The notes beneath the pieces were generated by a model that saw nothing but the letters and a program-made list of their open reading frames with translations, had not been told where the DNA came from and did not search any database. Below are positions 1 to 7,163 of a stretch of 37,210 nucleotides of DNA, piece by piece; positions within the stretch are counted from its first letter, which is position 1; each line of letters begins with the position of its first letter. The translations under genes were made by a program, and so were the position numbers. Source of the stretch: Geodermatophilus chilensis (GTDB taxonomy: Bacteria > Actinomycetota > Actinomycetes > Mycobacteriales > Geodermatophilaceae). The stretch spans positions 1 through 37,210 of the forward strand of contig NZ_NVPT01000029.1 of assembly GCF_002802985.1 (NCBI RefSeq). Reading direction: 5' to 3'.

Positions 1-166
1 GCAGATGGCGCTGCGCTGGTGCGCCGCCGGGATGGTCGAGGCCGGCAAGCAATTCCGTCGCGTCAACGGCCACCTGCACCTGCCCAAGCTGCGCGCCGCG
101 CTCGACGCCGAGATCGCCGGAACTGTCGCCACCGCCGTGCAAGATGAGGAGGTCGTCGCAGCCTGA
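1..166 (+). pseudogene. Transposase C-terminal fragment, IS256-like
   Basis: An open frame enters from the left edge (codons from base 2) and stops at TGA 164-166, giving the last 54 residues of a protein. The segment around GMVEAGKQFRRVNGH, followed by LHLPKLRAAL, resembles from memory the C-terminal tail of actinobacterial IS256 (mutator) family transposases. The catalytic DDE residues would lie left of the window and cannot be seen, so whether the full gene is intact is unknown. It ends only 26 bases before the truncated end of an IS982 transposase on the other strand. The family assignment rests on this tail only and is moderate. Confidence 0.5.
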
Positions 167-191
167 CGCACAACGGGCCGCCACCGAAGTT

Positions 192-956
192 CTACGAAGC
201 TCGGGACAACCTCCCGAAGGTGACTTCGACGCGGTTGCGCCAGCAGGCGATCACTTTCTGCAGCCAGCTGGGCAGGCCGGCGCGCTGGGTCTTGGTGGGC
301 GGGGTGAGAACGGCGGTGCCGCGGGCAGCCTGCTCGGCGGCGAAAGGCCGCCCGGTGAAGCCCTTGTCGGCCAGCAGGTCGCGCGGCGGTGGTCCGATCT
401 GGAGCAGGTCGGCGCCGACCTCACGTTCGCTGACCGCGGCCGGCACGATGCTCCAGGCCCGAACCAGCCGGGTGCCCAGGTCGGTAAGGACTGCCAGCCG
501 GAAGCCGTAGAACCACTCGGCGTGCGCGGCGTCGCGGCCGAAGCGGGCGACCAGCCCGTTGGGGCCGACCCAGCCGTCCGGGCCGCGCACCCGGGAGGGG
601 TGTTTGACCGGCAGCGCGGTGGTGTCGACCTGTTGGCAGTCATCGACGTCCAGCCCGGCCGCCAGCGCCGCGCGCAGCTGCTCGAAGGCGGCCCACAGCC
701 AACGGATGCGCCGGTTGACCTCGGACTGGTGCGGCAGGCGTGGAAACAGCTGCGCCCAGTCGCGGGCCACCTCGGCCAGGAACCCGGCCTCGCTGCGCCG
801 GCCCAGCAGGTGGCGGACCAGCGAGATGGCGAGCAGCTCGGCGTCGCTGCAGGCCGGGGCCGGACCCGGCCGCGCCGGGATGTCGACCGCGCCGGTGATG
901 ATCGCGTCATCGACAAGCACGTAGACGTGGACGAACAGGTCCTCGGTGGGCAGCAT
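192..956 (-). pseudogene. IS982-family transposase, truncated at the C-terminus
   Basis: This encodes a DDE transposase for cut-and-paste movement of an IS982-type element. The start is set at ATG 954-956 (MLPTEDLFVHVYVLVDD), the usual IS982-type N-terminus; a TTG at 990-992 would add 12 residues. Conserved pieces are visible: VDTTALPV (first Asp), the LLADKGFTG block (second Asp) and RNRVEVTFG (the Glu). After that block intact members usually run on for a few tens of residues, but here the frame reads RLSRAS and stops. About 254 residues remain. The cut end faces the IS256-like fragment 25 bases away, so one insertion or deletion probably trimmed it. A 13-bp hairpin covers the translation start. 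It is probably inactive, though the catalytic triad itself is present. Confidence 0.8.
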
Positions 957-960
957 GATG

Positions 961-1016
961 GGCGCCTCTGCGGGGCGAACGGTCTTCGACAACCGCTTAC
1001 GTGCCGCAGAGGCGCC
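961..1016 (-). promoter_or_regulatory. 13-bp hairpin over the transposase start
   Basis: GGCGCCTCTGCGG (961-973) is perfectly complementary to bases 1004-1016, with a 30-base loop. On the transposase transcript the inner arm begins 5 bases upstream of ATG 956 and contains the AGAGGC that would serve as a ribosome binding site. Folding would therefore hide the start. Such hairpins are known in insertion sequences as guards against transposase made from read-through transcripts; applying that role here is inference. Confidence 0.5.
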
Positions 1017-1075
1017 TTCATGTCAAGCCATCAGTTGCCGCGAGCAACCCACATAAGGCGCCTAAGGGGGAGGGG

Positions 1076-1202
1076 TGAGACTGAGACTGTGCCGGGTCTG
1101 AGACAGGCTGAGACAGGGCTGAGACTCCGCTGAGACCGGCCGAGACAGGCTGAGACGAACCAAGATCAGTCTCACCGTGTCTCAGCCCGTCTCGGCGTCT
1201 CA
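1076..1202. repeat. Helically phased TGAGAC / GTCTCA hexamer array
   Basis: TGAGAC occurs at 1076, 1082, 1099, 1109, 1120, 1131 and 1151, with a CGAGAC variant at 1141. From 1099 to 1151 the starts are 10 or 11 bases apart, one helical turn. The inverted hexamer GTCTCA follows at 1169, 1179 and 1197, with a GTCTCG variant at 1189, again about 10 bases apart. The two halves form a rough dyad centred near 1162. The array lies between the IS982 remnant and the recombinase terminator, inside the presumed mobile element. Same-face repeats of this type are typical of sites loaded by a cooperative DNA-binding protein (iterons, partition sites, operators). The actual function is unknown. Confidence 0.85.
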
Positions 1203-1510
1203 GCCAAGCACGAGAAGGCCCCGCCTCCGCCGAGGGCTCCGCCGCCGGGTCGGCTCCAGGCGCCCACGAGGACGCCGGGCACTAGGACCACGAGAACGGC
1301 CAGGACGCCGCCGCCGGGGCCGCCGACGCCGTGCCAGCGGGCGCCGTCGTGGCGGTCGAGCTGGTCGCCGGTGGGCGGCCTCCGGCGGTGCCGTGCCGGG
1401 TGGGGCGAGGCCCTGGCCCTCCACGGCGACCAGGAGCCTCCGGGGGTACCTCGGTACCGGCCGGGCGCTCCTGGGCCGTCCTGGACGTCATGGTCACCCC
1501 GGAAACGACG
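1203..1510. other. Stretch without a convincing gene
   Basis: About 300 bases lie between the hexamer array and the recombinase terminator. Short open frames exist on both strands but are dominated by Arg, Pro and Gly and lack a good start or ribosome site. One minus-strand frame, ending at a TGA on 1172-1174, contains a hydrophobic run (GGVLAVLVVLVPGVLVGAW) that could be the membrane segment of a small, possibly frameshifted, protein, but no start codon precedes it. I do not call a gene. Confidence 0.4.
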
Positions 1511-1545
1511 GAGGCCCCGCCCTCCTTGTGGGAGAGCGGGGCCTC
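1511..1545 (-). terminator. Hairpin terminator downstream of the recombinase
   Basis: GAGGCCCCGC (1511-1520) pairs perfectly with GCGGGGCCTC (1536-1545) around a 15-base loop that itself contains CTCC/GGAG. It sits 17 bases past the recombinase stop codon in the direction of transcription. There is no long T run, which is common for actinobacterial terminators. Confidence 0.6.
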
Positions 1546-1561
1546 GGGGGCGTCGGTGGGC

Positions 1562-3046
1562 TCAGACGGCGGCCTCGGAGACGTCGTCAGGCGTCCAGGT
1601 GATCTCCACTCGGGACGTGTCCAGGTAGCGGCTCCGGGACTTGGTCGGGGAGACCAGGACGGCGGAGACCTCGGCCTCCAGCAGGACCCGGCGGGCCTCC
1701 TCGTCGGCGGCCTCGTAGACCTCTCCCCACTTCTCGCCGGTCTCCTCCACGACGTAGAAGACGGGCGCCGTGGCGGCCTCCCGCAGCTCGGCCCTCGTGG
1801 CCTTGAGGGCGGCCAGGCGCTCCAGGAGGGCGGGGACGTCGGCATCGTCGGCGGTCATGGCGGCCGTGGTCTCGGAGATGGCCCGCTCCACTTCGCGGAA
1901 GGAGACCCCGCGAGCCTCGGCCCCGGTGTCGGAGACGGGGACGGTCCGGGTCATCGGCCGGTCTCCGAGGACGGAGAGGGCGGTCTCTGAGACGTAGCGC
2001 TCCAGTTGCTCGGCGGAGATCCGAGGCGAGGGGCACGTCACGCCATTCCGGCGGCTCGGGCAGGAGTAGATGGGCCGCCCGGCGGTGGCCTGGACGTAGA
2101 GCTTGGAGCCGCAGCAGGCGCACCGGACGAGGCCGGAGAGGAGGCGGGCCTGCCGGACCCTCTTCTCCCGAGGCTCCCCGTCCGGCTCCAGGAGGTCCCG
2201 GAGCTGGGCCAGCTCGGCGCTGGAGACGATTGGGTCCCAGACGGTGGCCGGGAGGCCGGTCTCGTCCCGGATCACCTCTCCCCGGTGGACGACCCTCCCG
2301 GCGATGTGGTCCGAGGTGAGGAGGCGGCGGAGGGACTGGACCCTCCAGACGCCACGGTCGGCGCCGTCGGTGTCCCGTCCAGCTCGGGCCAGGCGGCGCC
2401 ACTCCGAGCGAGGGGCGGGGACGCCCCGGTCGTTGAGGAGCCGGGCGACCCGGCCGAGGGAGTGGCCCTCGGTGACCATGCGGGCGGCCTCGCGGACGAC
2501 GGCGGCCTCCTCCCCATCCAGGACGAGGATGCGGCCGGGGCCGTCGGGGGCAGGCGCCGGGCGGTAGCCGTAGCCGACCGTTCCACCGGCAAAGCGGCCG
2601 TCACGCCGGAGCTTGTCGATGGAGCCAGCGACCCTGGCCCGGATGGCGTCGGCCTCGATCTCGGCGAAGACGGCGATGAGGGCCACCATGGCCTTGCCGA
2701 TGGGCGTCGTGAGGTCGATGGCCTCGGTAGCCGAGGCGACGGCGCAGCCCTTGTCGGTCCACTCCTTGAGGAGGGTGAGGGTGTCCAGCACCGAGCGGGC
2801 CAGCCGGTCCAGCCTCCAGACGATGACGACGTCCACCTCTCCCCGCTCCACGGCCTCGCGGAGGCGGCCGAGGCCGGGGCGGTCAAGGCCGGTCTTCGTG
2901 GCAGAGACGTCAATGTCCTCGTAGGGCTTGCCGACGATGGTCCAGCCACGAGCCTCGGCATAGGCGGTGCAGAGTTCGCGCTGGCGGGCGGGGGACGTCG
3001 TGGTCTCGGTCTCCTCGGAGAGCCGGACGTAGATGGCGGCACGCAT
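1562..3046 (-). CDS. Large serine recombinase (site-specific integrase)
   Basis: The protein has about 494 residues and the layout of large serine integrases. An N-terminal resolvase domain (about 1-150) begins MRAAIYVRLSEE with the nucleophilic serine in YVRLS and the active-site RLDRLARS block. A recombinase domain follows (about 150-280), then a zinc ribbon with CACCGSKLYV and a distal CPSRRNGVTC pair, then a helical, coiled-coil-prone C-terminus. ATG 3044-3046 is chosen because it gives the family N-terminus; the frame extends to an ATG at 3076, but that lies in the sequence of the interrupted neighbour gene. The start is about 25 bases from the break in the aldo/keto reductase gene, as expected for an integrase beside its att site. 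It appears intact. Its Arg codons (frequent AGG and CGG) look slightly different from the flanking chromosome. Confidence 0.93.
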   Translation of the reverse strand: MRAAIYVRLSEETETTTSPARQRELCTAYAEARGWTIVGKPYEDIDVSATKTGLDRPGLGRLREAVERGEVDVVIVWRLDRLARSVLDTLTLLKEWTDKGCAVASATEAIDLTTPIGKAMVALIAVFAEIEADAIRARVAGSIDKLRRDGRFAGGTVGYGYRPAPAPDGPGRILVLDGEEAAVVREAARMVTEGHSLGRVARLLNDRGVPAPRSEWRRLARAGRDTDGADRGVWRVQSLRRLLTSDHIAGRVVHRGEVIRDETGLPATVWDPIVSSAELAQLRDLLEPDGEPREKRVRQARLLSGLVRCACCGSKLYVQATAGRPIYSCPSRRNGVTCPSPRISAEQLERYVSETALSVLGDRPMTRTVPVSDTGAEARGVSFREVERAISETTAAMTADDADVPALLERLAALKATRAELREAATAPVFYVVEETGEKWGEVYEAADEEARRVLLEAEVSAVLVSPTKSRSRYLDTSRVEITWTPDDVSEAAV

Positions 3047-3061
3047 GGGAGCCACTCTAAT

Positions 3062-3090
3062 GCGACTAGGTTCCATACGGCCCGCCCTAC
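3062..3090. other. Putative att junction of the integrated element
   Basis: Left of about 3070 the sequence belongs to the recombinase leader and contains an in-frame TAG (3067-3069) relative to the reductase. From about 3073 rightward it reads as the conserved reductase motif YGPPYGSAE. The homology switch therefore lies in roughly 3068-3080. Large serine recombinases leave only a very short shared core, so the exact crossover cannot be fixed without the other end or an empty site. Confidence 0.6.
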
Positions 3091-3912
3091 GGCAGCGCCG
3101 AGACCAACTTCGGCCGGCACCTCACCGACGACTTCCGCCCCTACCGCGACGAGCTGGTGATCTCGACCAAGGCCGGCTACGACATGTGGCCCGGCCCGTA
3201 CGGCCAGGGCGGCGGCGGGCGCAAGTACGTGCTGTCCAGCCTCGACCAGTCGCTGGGCCGGATGGGCCTGGAGTACGTCGACGTCTTCTACTCCCACCGG
3301 CCGGACCCGACCACGCCGCTCGAGGAGACGATGGGCGCGCTGCACAGCGCCGTCCGGGCCGGCAAGGCCCTCTACGTCGGCATCTCGTCGTACTCGCCCG
3401 AGGACACCGCCAAGGCCGCGGAGATCCTCGCCGACCTCGGGACGCCGCTGCTGATCCACCAGCCGTCGTACTCGATGCTCAACCGCTGGATCGAGACCGA
3501 AGGCCTGCTCGACACCCTCGAGGACGTCGGCGCCGGCTGCATCGCCTTCTCCCCGCTCGCGCAGGGGATGCTCACCGGCAAGTACCTGGACGGCGTCCCG
3601 GAGGGCTCGCGCGCCAGCCAGGGCAAGTCGCTGTCGACCGACCTGCTCACCGAGGAGGCGCTCGGCCACGTCCGCGCCCTCGACGACATCGCGCAGCAGC
3701 GCGGGCAGAGCCTGGCGCAGATGGCGCTGGCCTGGGCGCTGCGCGACCCGCGGGTGACGTCCGTGCTCATCGGCGCGAGCAGCGTCGGCCAGCTGGAGCA
3801 GAACGTCGGCGCGCTCCAGCGGCTCGACTTCACCGACGACGAGCTCGCCGCGATCGACCAGCACGCCGTCGACTCGGGCATCGACCTGTGGGAGGCGCCC
3901 CGGACGGCCTGA
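3070..3912 (+). pseudogene. Aldo/keto reductase (YghZ/Gpr type), 5'-truncated by integration
   Basis: This is the C-terminal ~280 residues of an NADPH-dependent aldo/keto reductase closely resembling E. coli YghZ (L-glyceraldehyde 3-phosphate reductase). Recognisable blocks are YGPPYGSAETNFGRHL, ISTKAGYDMWPGPYG, YVDVFYSHRPDP, IHQPSYSMLNRW, GCIAFSPLAQGMLTGKYL and SVLIGASSVGQLEQNV. The catalytic Tyr, Lys and His positions are present. The first ~65 residues, including the strand with the catalytic Asp, are missing, and an in-frame stop lies just upstream. A GTG at 3157 could start a 251-residue remnant, but the barrel would be incomplete. The break coincides with the recombinase gene, so the gene was probably the integration target, with its 5' part at the far end of the element outside the window. 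The stop is one base from the convergent SRPBCC gene. Confidence 0.88.
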
Positions 3913-3913
3913 C

Positions 3914-4387
3914 TCAGGTTCCGCGTTCGACCAGCGCCGCCAGCCGGTCCAGCGCCGTCCGCCAGCCGAGCTCGTTGTCCGCGGGGGCGACGGCGTCGGG
4001 CACCCCGTCGTGGACGGCGGTCAGCTCGGTGCCGCCGCCCGGAGCGTCGTCCAGGCTGATCGTGCTGGTCATCTCGCCCCGCAGCGCGGGGTCGGCGGTC
4101 TCGAACACGTCGACCTCGACGACCAGCTCGTCGGGGACCAGACGGACGAAGCGGCCGCGGTAGGTGTCGGTGTGCGCGGTCGTCTTGCCCCGCGGCGCGG
4201 GCTCGTCGTACGTGAGCGAGACGCGCAGCGTGCCGCCCTCGCGGGCGTCGAACTCGTGCACCTGACAGGTCATGCCCTCGGGCACCTTCCACCGGGCGAC
4301 GGCGCCGGGGTCGAGCAGCGCCCGGTAGACGGCGGCGCGCGGTGCGTCGACGTGCCGGCTCACCCGGGTGGTGGTCACGGCGACCAT
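3914..4387 (-). CDS. SRPBCC / AHSA1-type protein
   Basis: The 157-residue protein starts MVAVTTTRVSRHVDAP at ATG 4385-4387. The pattern of an N-terminal strand with RHVDAPRAAVYRALLDP, ARWKVPEGMTCQVHEFDAREGG in the middle, and a final helix NELGWRTALDRLAALVE is that of the START-like AHSA1 (activator of Hsp90 ATPase homologue) superfamily. These are helix-grip folds that bind hydrophobic ligands; the ligand cannot be read from sequence. It is convergent with the reductase fragment, with stops one base apart. Upstream it faces the coiled-coil gene divergently across 36 bases, so the promoters must overlap. Confidence 0.85.
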   Translation of the reverse strand: MVAVTTTRVSRHVDAPRAAVYRALLDPGAVARWKVPEGMTCQVHEFDAREGGTLRVSLTYDEPAPRGKTTAHTDTYRGRFVRLVPDELVVEVDVFETADPALRGEMTSTISLDDAPGGGTELTAVHDGVPDAVAPADNELGWRTALDRLAALVERGT

Positions 4388-4423
4388 CGTGCCCGTGCGG
4401 CGTCGCGTGGCAGGGTCGGCGGG

Positions 4424-5380
4424 GTGGATCTCGACGAGGTGGCCGACGAGCTGTACGCGGTGCCGCCCGACGAGTTCGTCGCGGTGCGCAAGCAGCGCCA
4501 GGACGACGCCCGTGCGGCGGGGGACCGGACCCTCGCCCGTGAGATCGGCGGGCTGCCCAAGCCGACCGCTGCCGCGTGGGTGTGCAACCTGCTGGTGCGT
4601 GAGCAGCGCGCGGAGATCGAGGGGCTGGTCGAGCTCGGCGACCTGCTCCGTCAGGCCCAGGAGAGCCTGGCCGGCGACCAGCTGCGGGCGCTGGACCGGC
4701 AGCGCTCCCAGCTGCTGACCGCGCTCACCCGCCAGGCGGTGGCGCTGGCCCGGGAGCAGGGCGTACGGGTGGGCGGCACCGTGGAGACCCAGGTCGCGGA
4801 CACCCTGCGCGCGGCGATGGCCGACCCGGAGGCCGGTGCGGCGCTGCTGTCGGGCCGGCTCACCGGCGCGATGTCCTACAGCGGCCTGGGGACGACGGGC
4901 AGCCGGCCGGTGCTGCGGCTGGTGCCCCCGCGGCCCGAGCGGGAGGAGACCGGCCGGTCGCGTTCCGGCACCGCGGCCACCCGCCGGCGCCGCGACGAGG
5001 ACGACCGGCGGGCCGTCGAGGAGGAGGCCCGCCGGCGCGAGGAGGAGGCCCGGCGGGCGGCCGAGGAACGCCGGCGGCGCGCGCTCGAGGAGGCGCGGGC
5101 CGCGGCGGAGGAGGCGACCGCGCTGGCCGCGGAGGCGGTCGCCGCGGCCGAGGAGGAACGGCACCGCGTCGACGACCTCGACGCCCGCCGGGCCGACCTG
5201 CAGGCCCGGGTCGAGGAGCTGACCGACGAGCTGGCCCGCACCGAGGAGGAGGCCGCGCGGACCGCCGAGGAGCTCAGGCGGGCCGAGCGGCACCGGCGCA
5301 CCGCCGATCGGCACGCCACCGAGGCGACCGCCGCCCGCGACCGCGCGCTGGCCGCGCTGCGGGCGCTCGAGGAGGGCTGA
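4424..5380 (+). CDS. Coiled-coil protein of unknown function
   Basis: The start is GTG 4424 (VDLDEVADELYAVPPDEF), with CAGGGT at 4411-4416 as a possible -10, so a leaderless transcript is likely. The 318 residues form two parts. An N-terminal ~170-residue helical domain contains FVAVRKQRQDDARAAGDRTL and GLPKPTAAAWVCNLLV. A C-terminal half (about 180-318) is very rich in Glu, Arg and Ala with heptad character, predicting a long coiled coil. There is no signal peptide or membrane segment. Similar proteins occur in other actinobacteria as hypothetical proteins; I do not know the function. The basic helical N-terminus would allow nucleic-acid binding, but that is speculative. Confidence 0.8.
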   Translation: MDLDEVADELYAVPPDEFVAVRKQRQDDARAAGDRTLAREIGGLPKPTAAAWVCNLLVREQRAEIEGLVELGDLLRQAQESLAGDQLRALDRQRSQLLTALTRQAVALAREQGVRVGGTVETQVADTLRAAMADPEAGAALLSGRLTGAMSYSGLGTTGSRPVLRLVPPRPEREETGRSRSGTAATRRRRDEDDRRAVEEEARRREEEARRAAEERRRRALEEARAAAEEATALAAEAVAAAEEERHRVDDLDARRADLQARVEELTDELARTEEEAARTAEELRRAERHRRTADRHATEATAARDRALAALRALEEG

Positions 5381-5454
5381 GCCCGGGGCCACCGCCGGTG
5401 GTCATCGACGAGTGGCTGCTCGACACGCCGGGGGCGGTAGCCACCCGCCGATGG

Positions 5455-6642
5455 TCACGCCGGCTGGGCGGTGGGGGGACGACGTCGCGCGGGGTGCAAC
5501 AGCCCGATGGTCGCAGCGAGTGGTGCACACGCGACGAAGACCGTGGCAAGGCCGGCCTCCCCGGCGACGAGGCCGGCCAGGGGCGGGCCGATGACGAGCC
5601 CGAGGGCCATGGCCAGCATGGCGGTGACGATCCCGGTGGCGGGGGCTCGCGGGACGAGGGCGTTGCTCCAGATCAGGAGCAGCCCGATGATCGCGATGAA
5701 GCTCGCGCCGTAGAGGACCGCCGAGACCAGGACGAGACCCGGTGCCGCGGCCAGGAGCAGGCAGGACGCGGCGAGAGTCGACGCCGTGGCCGCCAGCAGG
5801 TGGCGGAGCGAGGTCGTGGCCAGCAGCGCCCCGACGAGTCCCCCCGCGACACCGCTGACCCCGACCAGCGTCTGGAAGACCCCACCGCTGATCTCTCCCA
5901 GCGGCGCCTGAGCGGTGGCGACCTCCACGCCGAAGGTCGCGTAGCTGCCAGCGACGAGACCGGCGAGGAAGGTCGCGGACAGCAGCCGCCCACCCTGCTC
6001 CCGTGCCACCGCCACCAGGCTCCCGGCACCGATGGGGCCGTCGGTGTGGTCGGCCCGGTGGGGCAGGGTGCGTACTGCCCAGATCGTGACCAGGAGGGCC
6101 ATGGCGGCGAAGGCCGACCACGCCACCCGCCAGGATCCCGTGGCGAGCAGGCTCACCGGCCCGGCCACGGCGACGCCGTAGGCGGTACCCGAGTTGATGA
6201 CTCCGTGACCGCGTGCCCGGCGGTCTGCGGCCAGGTGCTCCTCGACCGCCGCCACGTAAGGGGGCCACACCAGCGCTGGGCTGGCGCCGGCGACGACGAC
6301 ACCGACTCCCAGGGTGAGCGGGCCGGTCGCCGCGGCGCACACCAGCATCCCCACGACAGCGGCCGTGCCACCGACCGTCACGGTGACTCGCGGCCCCAAC
6401 CGGGACAGCAGGGAAGGGCAGGCCAGACACGCGGTCAGATAGCTGCCGTAACCGGCGCCGCCGATGGCGCCCAACTGGCCCAACGACAGCTCCAGGGAGG
6501 TCCGCATCTGCGGCAGCAGGAGTCCGTAGCCGTAGCGGGCGAGTCCGAAGGCGACCGCCACGACGGCCAGCCCCGACCCGATCAGCGCCCACGGGCGGAC
6601 CAGATCGGCATTCGGGCTGGTCCCAGCTCGGGCGCCCCTCAC
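5455..6642 (-). CDS. MFS transporter (YbfB/YjiJ-like)
   Basis: This is an integral membrane transporter of about 395 residues with some 12 hydrophobic segments, beginning at WALIGSGLAVVAVAFGLARYGYGLLLP. That opening, with FGLARYGYG and LGQLGAIGGAGYGSYL, is typical of the YbfB/YjiJ-like branch of the major facilitator superfamily. GTG 6640-6642 is chosen because it overlaps the stop of the upstream marR gene in a GTGA arrangement, implying coupled translation; the frame also extends to an ATG at 6702 inside marR. Pairing with a MarR regulator suggests an efflux pump induced by a small ligand. The substrate is not evident. Confidence 0.85.
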   Translation of the reverse strand: MRGARAGTSPNADLVRPWALIGSGLAVVAVAFGLARYGYGLLLPQMRTSLELSLGQLGAIGGAGYGSYLTACLACPSLLSRLGPRVTVTVGGTAAVVGMLVCAAATGPLTLGVGVVVAGASPALVWPPYVAAVEEHLAADRRARGHGVINSGTAYGVAVAGPVSLLATGSWRVAWSAFAAMALLVTIWAVRTLPHRADHTDGPIGAGSLVAVAREQGGRLLSATFLAGLVAGSYATFGVEVATAQAPLGEISGGVFQTLVGVSGVAGGLVGALLATTSLRHLLAATASTLAASCLLLAAAPGLVLVSAVLYGASFIAIIGLLLIWSNALVPRAPATGIVTAMLAMALGLVIGPPLAGLVAGEAGLATVFVACAPLAATIGLLHPARRRPPTAQPA

Positions 6643-7163
6643 GCCGGTCCGCCGTCGTCCGGCGGCCAGCGGTCCAACGGGCATCCCGGCGCCTGCCGGC
6701 ACGCGGTCACGTCACACAGTCGGCAGGTGCGCAGCACCTCCTTCCGACTGCTCGGCAGTGCGGTCACCAGGTCAGGGAGCAGCTGCTCCAGCGCCGAGCG
6801 CTGGTCCTCGCCGAGGGCCTCCACCACCTGCCGTACCGCTTCCTCGCGGGCGTCCAGTACTCGCCGAGCTGTCTCCGTCCCCATCTCGGTCAGGCGCAGC
6901 AGGACGGTGCGCCGATCGGTGGGGCTCGGCGCGCGGGTGACCACGCCCAGGGCCGCGAGGCGGTCGGCCAAGCGGACCCCGCCGGAGCCGCCCACCCCCA
7001 CGACTGCGGCCAGGTCGGACACGGAGGTGTCGGGATGCCGGCTCAGGTGCACGAGGACGGCCGCCGCAGCACCACCCGCACCGCATGCCGCCTCGGTGGC
7101 CGCGGCCACCCGGTCGGCGACCGCCAGCGCCAAGGTGCCGAGCAGGTTCGTCACCCTGTCCAT
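6639..7163 (-). CDS. MarR-family regulator with C-terminal cysteine cluster
   Basis: The 174-residue protein carries a winged helix-turn-helix at about residues 30-110. VSDLAAVVGVGGSGGVRLADRLAALGVVTR is the recognition region and RRTVLLRLTEMG the wing. The last 35 residues hold CRLCDVTACRQAPGC, a CX2CX4CX5C cluster that could bind metal or act as a redox switch; standard MarR proteins lack this. The gene heads a two-gene operon with the MFS transporter (GTGA overlap). A perfect 17-bp palindrome begins 12 bases upstream of its start, so it probably represses itself and the transporter until its ligand or an oxidant arrives. Confidence 0.88.
   Translation of the reverse strand: MDRVTNLLGTLALAVADRVAAATEAACGAGGAAAAVLVHLSRHPDTSVSDLAAVVGVGGSGGVRLADRLAALGVVTRAPSPTDRRTVLLRLTEMGTETARRVLDAREEAVRQVVEALGEDQRSALEQLLPDLVTALPSSRKEVLRTCRLCDVTACRQAPGCPLDRWPPDDGGPA

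Follow-up and report, generated by a model that had tools for sequence, protein, structure and literature searches.

PICI/SaPI origins are located immediately 3' of rep and consist of two sets of iterons around an AT-rich stretch that is thought to melt (PMC6092414). In pRN1 a stem-loop origin lies behind a primase/helicase gene whose product has a C-terminal winged helix, and RSF1010 has a separate iteron reader (RepC), helicase (RepA) and hairpin primase (RepB') (PMC4234260). phiRv1, phiRv2 and the candidate mycobacterial PICIs are small integrated elements with a tyrosine or serine integrase, a capsid gene and, in some, a DNA helicase, and the accessible part of that account describes no origin or iterons for elements of this type (PMC10654092). 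Actinomycete integrating conjugative elements (AICEs) can carry Prim-Pol replication genes and serine integrases (PMC3218068). In the available portions of the literature one further group of satellites is described without a primase gene, certain RepA phages are described with an N-terminal helix-turn-helix, and other published systems offered no closer parallel.

We analysed a stretch of 37,210 nucleotides from Geodermatophilus chilensis (the window), which is the whole of contig C212 of its genome, and found a phased hexamer array at 1076-1202 that we consider, with a probability of about 0.83, to be one half of the iteron replication origin of a phage-satellite-like integrated element. The origin class to which it would belong combines the PICI, pRN1 and RSF1010 designs. 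As in PICI/SaPI (PMC6092414), the putative origin lies 3' of the replication gene and two sets of short iterons flank a centre, but here the centre is a C-run/AT/G-run palindrome, the helicase is of the RSF1010-RepA/AAA_25 type, and the window copy is cut and has no rep. The class shares with pRN1 a stem-loop downstream of a gene that combines primase-polymerase and helicase domains with a C-terminal winged helix, whereas pRN1 itself is described with a stem-loop of 100 nt and a superfamily 3 helicase and lacks iterons (PMC4234260). With RSF1010 the RepA fold, the iterons and the hairpins at the origin are shared, but the winged helix and, in some Reps, also a primase domain are fused to the helicase here (PMC4234260). 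Among the open-licence papers listed in our searches no report was found that combines PICI-type iterons, a stem-loop and an RSF1010-type helicase in this way.

Direct reading and a pattern search gave 10 exact TGAGAC/GTCTCA hexamers and two variants within 1076-1202. Eight predicted iterons lie on the forward strand at 1076..1156 (TGAGAC at 1076, 1082, 1099, 1109, 1120, 1131 and 1151, CGAGAC at 1141), and these read GTCTCA on the strand of rep; four predicted inverted iterons follow on the reverse strand at 1169..1202 (GTCTCA at 1169, 1179 and 1197, GTCTCG at 1189). The start-to-start spacings are 6, 17, 10, 11, 11, 10, 10, 18, 10, 10 and 8 bases. The initial annotation gave the hexamers that it listed at their correct positions, but it missed the copies at 1076 and 1082, which are set off by spacings of 6 and 17 bases. 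Its claim of helical phasing was confirmed, as the six sites from 1099 to 1151 are in phase with a resultant of 0.98 at a period of 10.5. TGAGAC is ordinary in the window as a whole (13 copies against 14.6 expected), and it is its clustering that is unusual, with 10 copies in the best 130 bases compared to 6 for the best stretch of any other hexamer in the window. Across 200 first-order Markov simulations the densest cluster of any hexamer had at most 8 copies in 130 bases, and the array is not a product of chance. Two open reading frames (3-1133 and 144-1133, both on the forward strand) run over the array; they were taken as chance frames because they overlie, in the opposite direction, a transposase frame supported by Pfam (192-992, reverse strand), so that, as had been proposed, no gene is likely to overlap the array. 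No match was obtained with Rfam for window 1-4000 at gathering scores or with Blastn for the array and integrase against plasmids, and against phages the same query gave only integrase genes among the 20 of 78 matches listed.

A spaced TGAGAC triple occurs at one other place in the genome, on contig C167. There, 16 exact copies at 3437-3618 begin about 30 bases behind the stop codon of a gene (1317-3404, forward strand) encoding a 695-residue protein with Prim-Pol and AAA_25 domains, the one rep gene found in this genome. Window 1061-1197 is 85% identical to the C167 array. The order in C167, along the strand of rep, is three copies of GTCTCA, three of TGAGAC and eight of GTCTCA, then the core CACCCCTCCCCCTTAGGGGTG and two more TGAGAC. 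The window array has the same order from the core towards rep, its inverted set at 1169..1202 resembling the set of three at the corresponding place in C167, and it is without the three rep-proximal GTCTCA copies, without rep and without everything beyond the centre of the core. As single-stranded DNA the C167 core is predicted to fold into a hairpin of -20 kcal/mol (z -7.4); two further loci that were folded gave z -4.6 (L354) and z -1.6 (L262). Set against a PICI origin, C167 has the two sets and the position 3' of rep, and in its centre a palindrome whose AT core is short. Judged from its sequence, C167 carries the intact predicted origin together with its rep gene. The right end of the contig (4901-5343 of the retrieved stretch L008) looks like an assembly artefact because it is an inverted duplication with a tail that we take to be adapter-like.

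In the window the core is cut in half. Positions 1063..1075 hold the TAA centre and the G-run side on the forward strand (CCCCTCCCCCTTA on the rep strand), and these letters match the intact core of C167. The array limits proposed earlier left out this half palindrome and its junction with the end of an insertion sequence (IS) at 1062. The IS lies on the reverse strand at 211..1062 with a DDE transposase frame (192-992, Pfam DDE_Tnp_1), and presumably it is IS5-like. Next to its right end, GGCGCC (1057-1062), come TAA (1063-1065) and then the G-run of the core. We placed this end with the help of a copy on contig C169 (217-1075), which has inverted ends with TCA on both sides and is 86.9% identical to window 211-1068. 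The IS is itself cut by the end of another repeated element (1..213), copies of which are on C162 and C81 and, for 115-213, also on C213. We read the junction as an insertion of the IS into the TTA/TAA centre of the origin palindrome; the far side of the core beyond the IS was not found. On the other side, the stretch between the array and the integrase (1203..1561) has no match to the C167 rep, and a terminator-like inverted repeat (1511-1525/1531-1545) lies behind the integrase gene. The order in the window is integrase, array and IS in the same orientation with rep absent between, and the array is flanked by the IS and the integrase with no adjoining replication initiator gene. Because the IS ends in the centre, the other half would lie beyond it and no rep is present up to the integrase, the window copy is probably not a working origin alone. 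Most likely it is a copy of an ordinary kind, an iteron origin of the satellite type, in a damaged state.

The element around the array could be partly delimited. The large serine recombinase next to the array, a 504-residue protein encoded at 1562..3076 on the reverse strand (Pfam Resolvase, Recombinase and Zn_ribbon_recom; phrog_95 integrase), is the integrase that ends the array-bearing element, and there is no indication that it acts on the array. An attR core, TACGGCCCGCC, at 3076..3086 is common to attL on contig C334 by sequence comparison and is followed by the 3' part of an aldo-keto reductase gene (3087..3912, forward strand), the 5' part of which is on C334. This gene is matched at 1e-80 or better in 14 of the 16 genomes of the genus sample (own genome included), alignments to three genus genomes begin at window position 3076, and TACGG(C/G)CCGCC is common to attR, attL and the empty site of a relative. 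An element with a serine integrase thus occupies an aldo-keto reductase gene, with attR in the window and attL on C334. An integrase with a specific attachment site, by which PICIs are recognised, is present here as the serine integrase with attR and attL. Since C334 carries the 5' half of the gene, we take its positions 1-6921 as the left part of the element. They encode on the forward strand a borderline TerS-like protein (121-627; PF25673 at 26.6 bits, just under the cutoff of 27), which also matches phrog_226, labelled minor tail protein, at 3e-15, and an Abi_C (abortive-infection) protein (2365-3330; 69 bits, cutoff 24). Four other frames of C334 obtained no named function, and the parts of the element that are assembled showed no capsid gene. 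The 9-base motif CGTTTACAC occurs three times in the C334 element part (970, 6173, 6881) and twice in C167 (992 and 2939, one of them inside rep), and is absent from the window and from five other stretches of the genome. It is possibly a regulatory site or a sign that C334 and C167 belong together; that C167 may be the middle of the element is only suggestive from this motif.

If C167 does belong to the element, the order would be integrase, window array, IS copies, rep and C167 array, and the window array might be a second, accessory or regulatory iteron region between int and rep instead of a remnant of an origin that has lost its rep. The crr of phage P4 is such an accessory region, and the shared CGTTTACAC motif hints in the same direction. 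We nevertheless regard this as rather unlikely. When rep loci that have at least five copies of their own hexamer were searched for extra clusters elsewhere, named genomes showed none and viral loci showed four, of which three are closely related; at none of the four does the cluster lie between int and rep, as far as could be seen. Moreover, half of the core is retained in the window copy, although an accessory region would not need it.

The integrase did not lead to further arrays. It is matched at 1e-60 in 4 of 112 genomes of the family (own genome included), the other three proteins being 37-47% identical, and its three nearest relatives (L339, L342, L343) had no such rep and no clear phased array in 12-20 kb each, which argues that the array goes with rep and not with this integrase. 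A genus relative (G085) has a serine integrase, a weak Prim-Pol match and rep in succession, its contig stopping 89 bases past rep, and at another locus (L344) a serine integrase gene and rep are followed by a GTCTCA array and, at a greater distance, by a tape measure gene. Integrase, rep, origin and capsid were found on one strand at 3 of 79 loci (L348, L362, L365) with a single capsid query; L362, from Isoptericola halotolerans, has a serine integrase and L365, from Mycolicibacterium iranicum, a tyrosine integrase. These three resemble phiRv1/phiRv2-type elements by description and not by comparison with phiRv1 itself (PMC10654092). In a satellite-like module of E. coli (L345, 3910-4115), which has capsid genes and a helicase of the RepA family, the helicase gene is followed by GTGAG-type repeats and AT-rich DNA, and no C-run/G-run palindrome was seen there.

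Relatives of Rep were found at no fewer than 59 viral loci and in 37 of 397 genomes of the order, and 79 named-genome loci were kept of 190 confirmed. Because the query alignments for the viral and named-genome searches contain Reps that were found by TGAGAC, this sampling may lean towards such Reps. The protein P0001 used as a single query found no relative in the viral contigs and no solved-structure relative by sequence at E 0.01; L009 and L011 look unrelated by eye. A stop codon was present at 53 of the 59 viral loci and enough sequence at 52, and we scored hexamers repeated at 9-12 bases within -100 to +400 of the stop. A score of at least 2 was reached behind rep at 22 of 52 loci, leaving out four TGAGAC-selected loci, compared to 44 of the 829 other windows taken from the 56 scored loci; L228, a contig found by TGAGAC, is among the 52 and scores 1. 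For the named genomes (77 of 79 with a stop, 75 with enough sequence, spacing 8-12), 34 of 75 loci scored at least 3 behind rep against 14 of 2,839 control windows, and 54 of 75 scored at least 2 against 158 of 2,839. Conversely, 41 of the 75 stay below 3 and 21 below 2, without a clear array, and the locus counts are not all independent because near copies are present (L388-L390, L243-L246).

The hexamer varies by locus (CGTAAC, GTTGCA, TGACCA, TGTCCC, GTCCAC, ATTGTC and others) and its copies often form two opposed sets with a short palindrome between them. A loss of the phased spacing in relatives, which the initial annotation had named as grounds against its reading, was not observed; the relatives keep the phase but with another hexamer, which indicates that the hexamer itself is not the conserved feature. 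Palindromes of the TTTA type scoring at least 8 were found behind rep at 14 of 75 loci and in 7 of 2,839 control windows; in an earlier set the numbers were 23 of 75 and 19 of 1,153, or 18 of 67 after removal of eight loci found by TGAGAC. With any centre, a score of 8 was reached by 53% behind rep and 19% elsewhere, and TATA-type centres occur in the same C-run/G-run frame (e.g. L362, L369, L396, L397, L411, L417, L424 and L425). A rep match was present at 21 of 30 loci of the order and absent by that search at 9; the palindrome was visible in 15 of 15 inspected loci (weak in L299 and L308), which had been picked for a called hexamer, the remaining six of the 21 being left out, two of them at contig ends.

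In the initial annotation the array had been likened to partition sites, iterons or cooperative operators. The iteron comparison is borne out by the C167 homologue of the array and by the arrays that relatives have directly behind their Rep helicase genes, whereas the other two find no support, with the arrays at the 3' end of a replication gene and around a palindrome. Phased repeats would also suit an operator to which a repressor of the element binds cooperatively, and iterons often regulate rep. The relatives' arrays are located behind the 3' end of rep and not in front of it, and we consider an operator very unlikely, even if genes beyond the array may still be controlled. Phased direct repeats with an inverted half are also a known centromere design, so that a partition site for a small ParR- or ParB-like protein was weighed; with the relatives' arrays behind a helicase gene around a palindrome, and a hexamer that goes with the winged helix of that helicase, it appears extremely improbable.

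The relation between hexamer and helicase was seen in the C-terminal part of Rep. The model of the L354 Rep (335 residues, mean pLDDT 84.7, pTM 0.72) matches RecA-like ATPases, with RAD51 in the first row and RSF1010 RepA in rows 2, 3 and 10 (TM by target 0.70-0.71). Behind the RecA-like core the model has helices at 272-285, 292-299 and 303-315 and two strands, by pattern a probable winged helix, and KATFYR at 303-308 is the start of its third helix. Among 138 loci that were not found by TGAGAC, a GTCTCA array is present at four, all four with [KR][AP][ST]xxR in the last 110 residues of Rep; four have such a string but no array and 130 have neither (Fisher 4.8e-6, kinship ignored). The four array-less strings, three near-identical KASGLR and one KASPYR, do not by eye belong to this helix.

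Fourteen Reps carry xx[ST]xYR with K, R or Q first, and Ala in second place goes with TCTCA in 7 of 7 and Ser or Thr with TCCCA in 7 of 7 (Fisher 5.8e-4, with rows picked post hoc and kinship ignored). Four of the seven Ala rows were found by TGAGAC, and without these the comparison is 3 against 7, or 1 in 120 by arithmetic. This code was first noticed by eye and partly fitted. The 14 rows leave out L292 (same as L344), L372 (QASIYR, TCTCA 9), L408 (KASPYR, none), L369 (KSSFDR, TCCCA), L371 (KATLAR, TCTCA), L353 (DATFYR, no clear array), L356 (EGTFYR, too little sequence), L363 (IMTVYR, none) and L297 (DGTFYR, CTCCAC), as well as L109 (KPTFHR), L121 (RATTAR) and L125 (KPTTNR), which all have GTCTCA and were found by TGAGAC. 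Reps with [SNP][AS][ST]FHR have 5-10 copies of GTCC(A/G)C at 9 of 9 loci. The rule K[ST][ST]xxR with TCCCA was set before a later search, which gave 14 loci: five were known and six lacked such a helix; the other three (L445, L446, L447), all new, fit the rule at the second residue, the only residue that they test because R or Q replaces K. L081 breaks the rule, having a TGAGAC array without the expected helix. On these alignments the tail of Rep, at the start of the putative recognition helix, seems to predict which repeat the protein reads.

TGAGAC itself recurs in viral contigs. The loose triple was found in 120 stretches or more, but the reversed hexamer CAGAGT also gave 95, so that such counts alone are weak evidence. 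Clusters of at least six copies with at least two per strand were present in 13 of the 120 TGAGAC stretches listed and in 1 of 95 for CAGAGT; the tight pattern of core and TGAGAC was not found in viral contigs. Some arrays adjoin Prim-Pol/AAA_25, DnaB-like, DUF5906 or DUF927 genes, and others have no recognised replication gene nearby (e.g. L014, L023, L049, L065, L079, L092 and L106). As the hexamer itself was the search criterion, these arrays are evidence only of its recurrence as a likely iteron. Near replication genes of other families (DUF5906, DUF927/DUF3854), TGAGAC arrays were observed at L119 (10286-10559) and L020 (808-890), and one at L121 (6343-6468), beside a replication gene of another family, lies around the palindrome TATATATATA.

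A transfer site with TraB recognition repeats, for which the Prim-Pol genes and serine integrases of some AICEs would speak (PMC3218068), is hardly credible, as no FtsK/SpoIIIE-type Pfam match was found among the 11 frames of C167 and C334 of this partly assembled element and some relatives carry capsid genes.

If the array is half of an iteron origin, as we propose, the element would first be excised, after which a RepA-like ring helicase, here fused to a primase-polymerase domain, would act on it. The C-terminal winged helix of the helicase would bind the phased GTCTCA/TGAGAC hexamers, and the helicase would be loaded on one face of the DNA and from both sides. Between the opposed sets the palindrome, whose AT centre is short, may then be opened or extruded, so that the helicase could enter and the fused primase or a host primase could start synthesis.

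We would give about even odds to the wider proposal that these loci represent a widespread class of mobile-element origins, in which hexamer iterons specific to each Rep stand in two opposed sets around a C-run/AT/G-run palindrome and are read by a winged helix fused to an RSF1010-RepA-like helicase, the start of the helix predicting the iteron (TCTCA for Ala and TCCCA for Ser or Thr as second residue, GTCC(A/G)C for [SNP][AS][ST]FHR). Since the helix start would predict the iteron, origins could be predicted from the protein. If the proposal is true, the origins of many uncharacterised satellites and prophages would be locatable from one gene, a simple residue-to-base code could be checked by a few binding assays, and the class would join PICI iterons, the pRN1 stem-loop and the RSF1010 helicase in one system. 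The damaged copy in the window matters little alone, and its value is as a lead to origins of a wide class that appear to follow a residue-to-base code.
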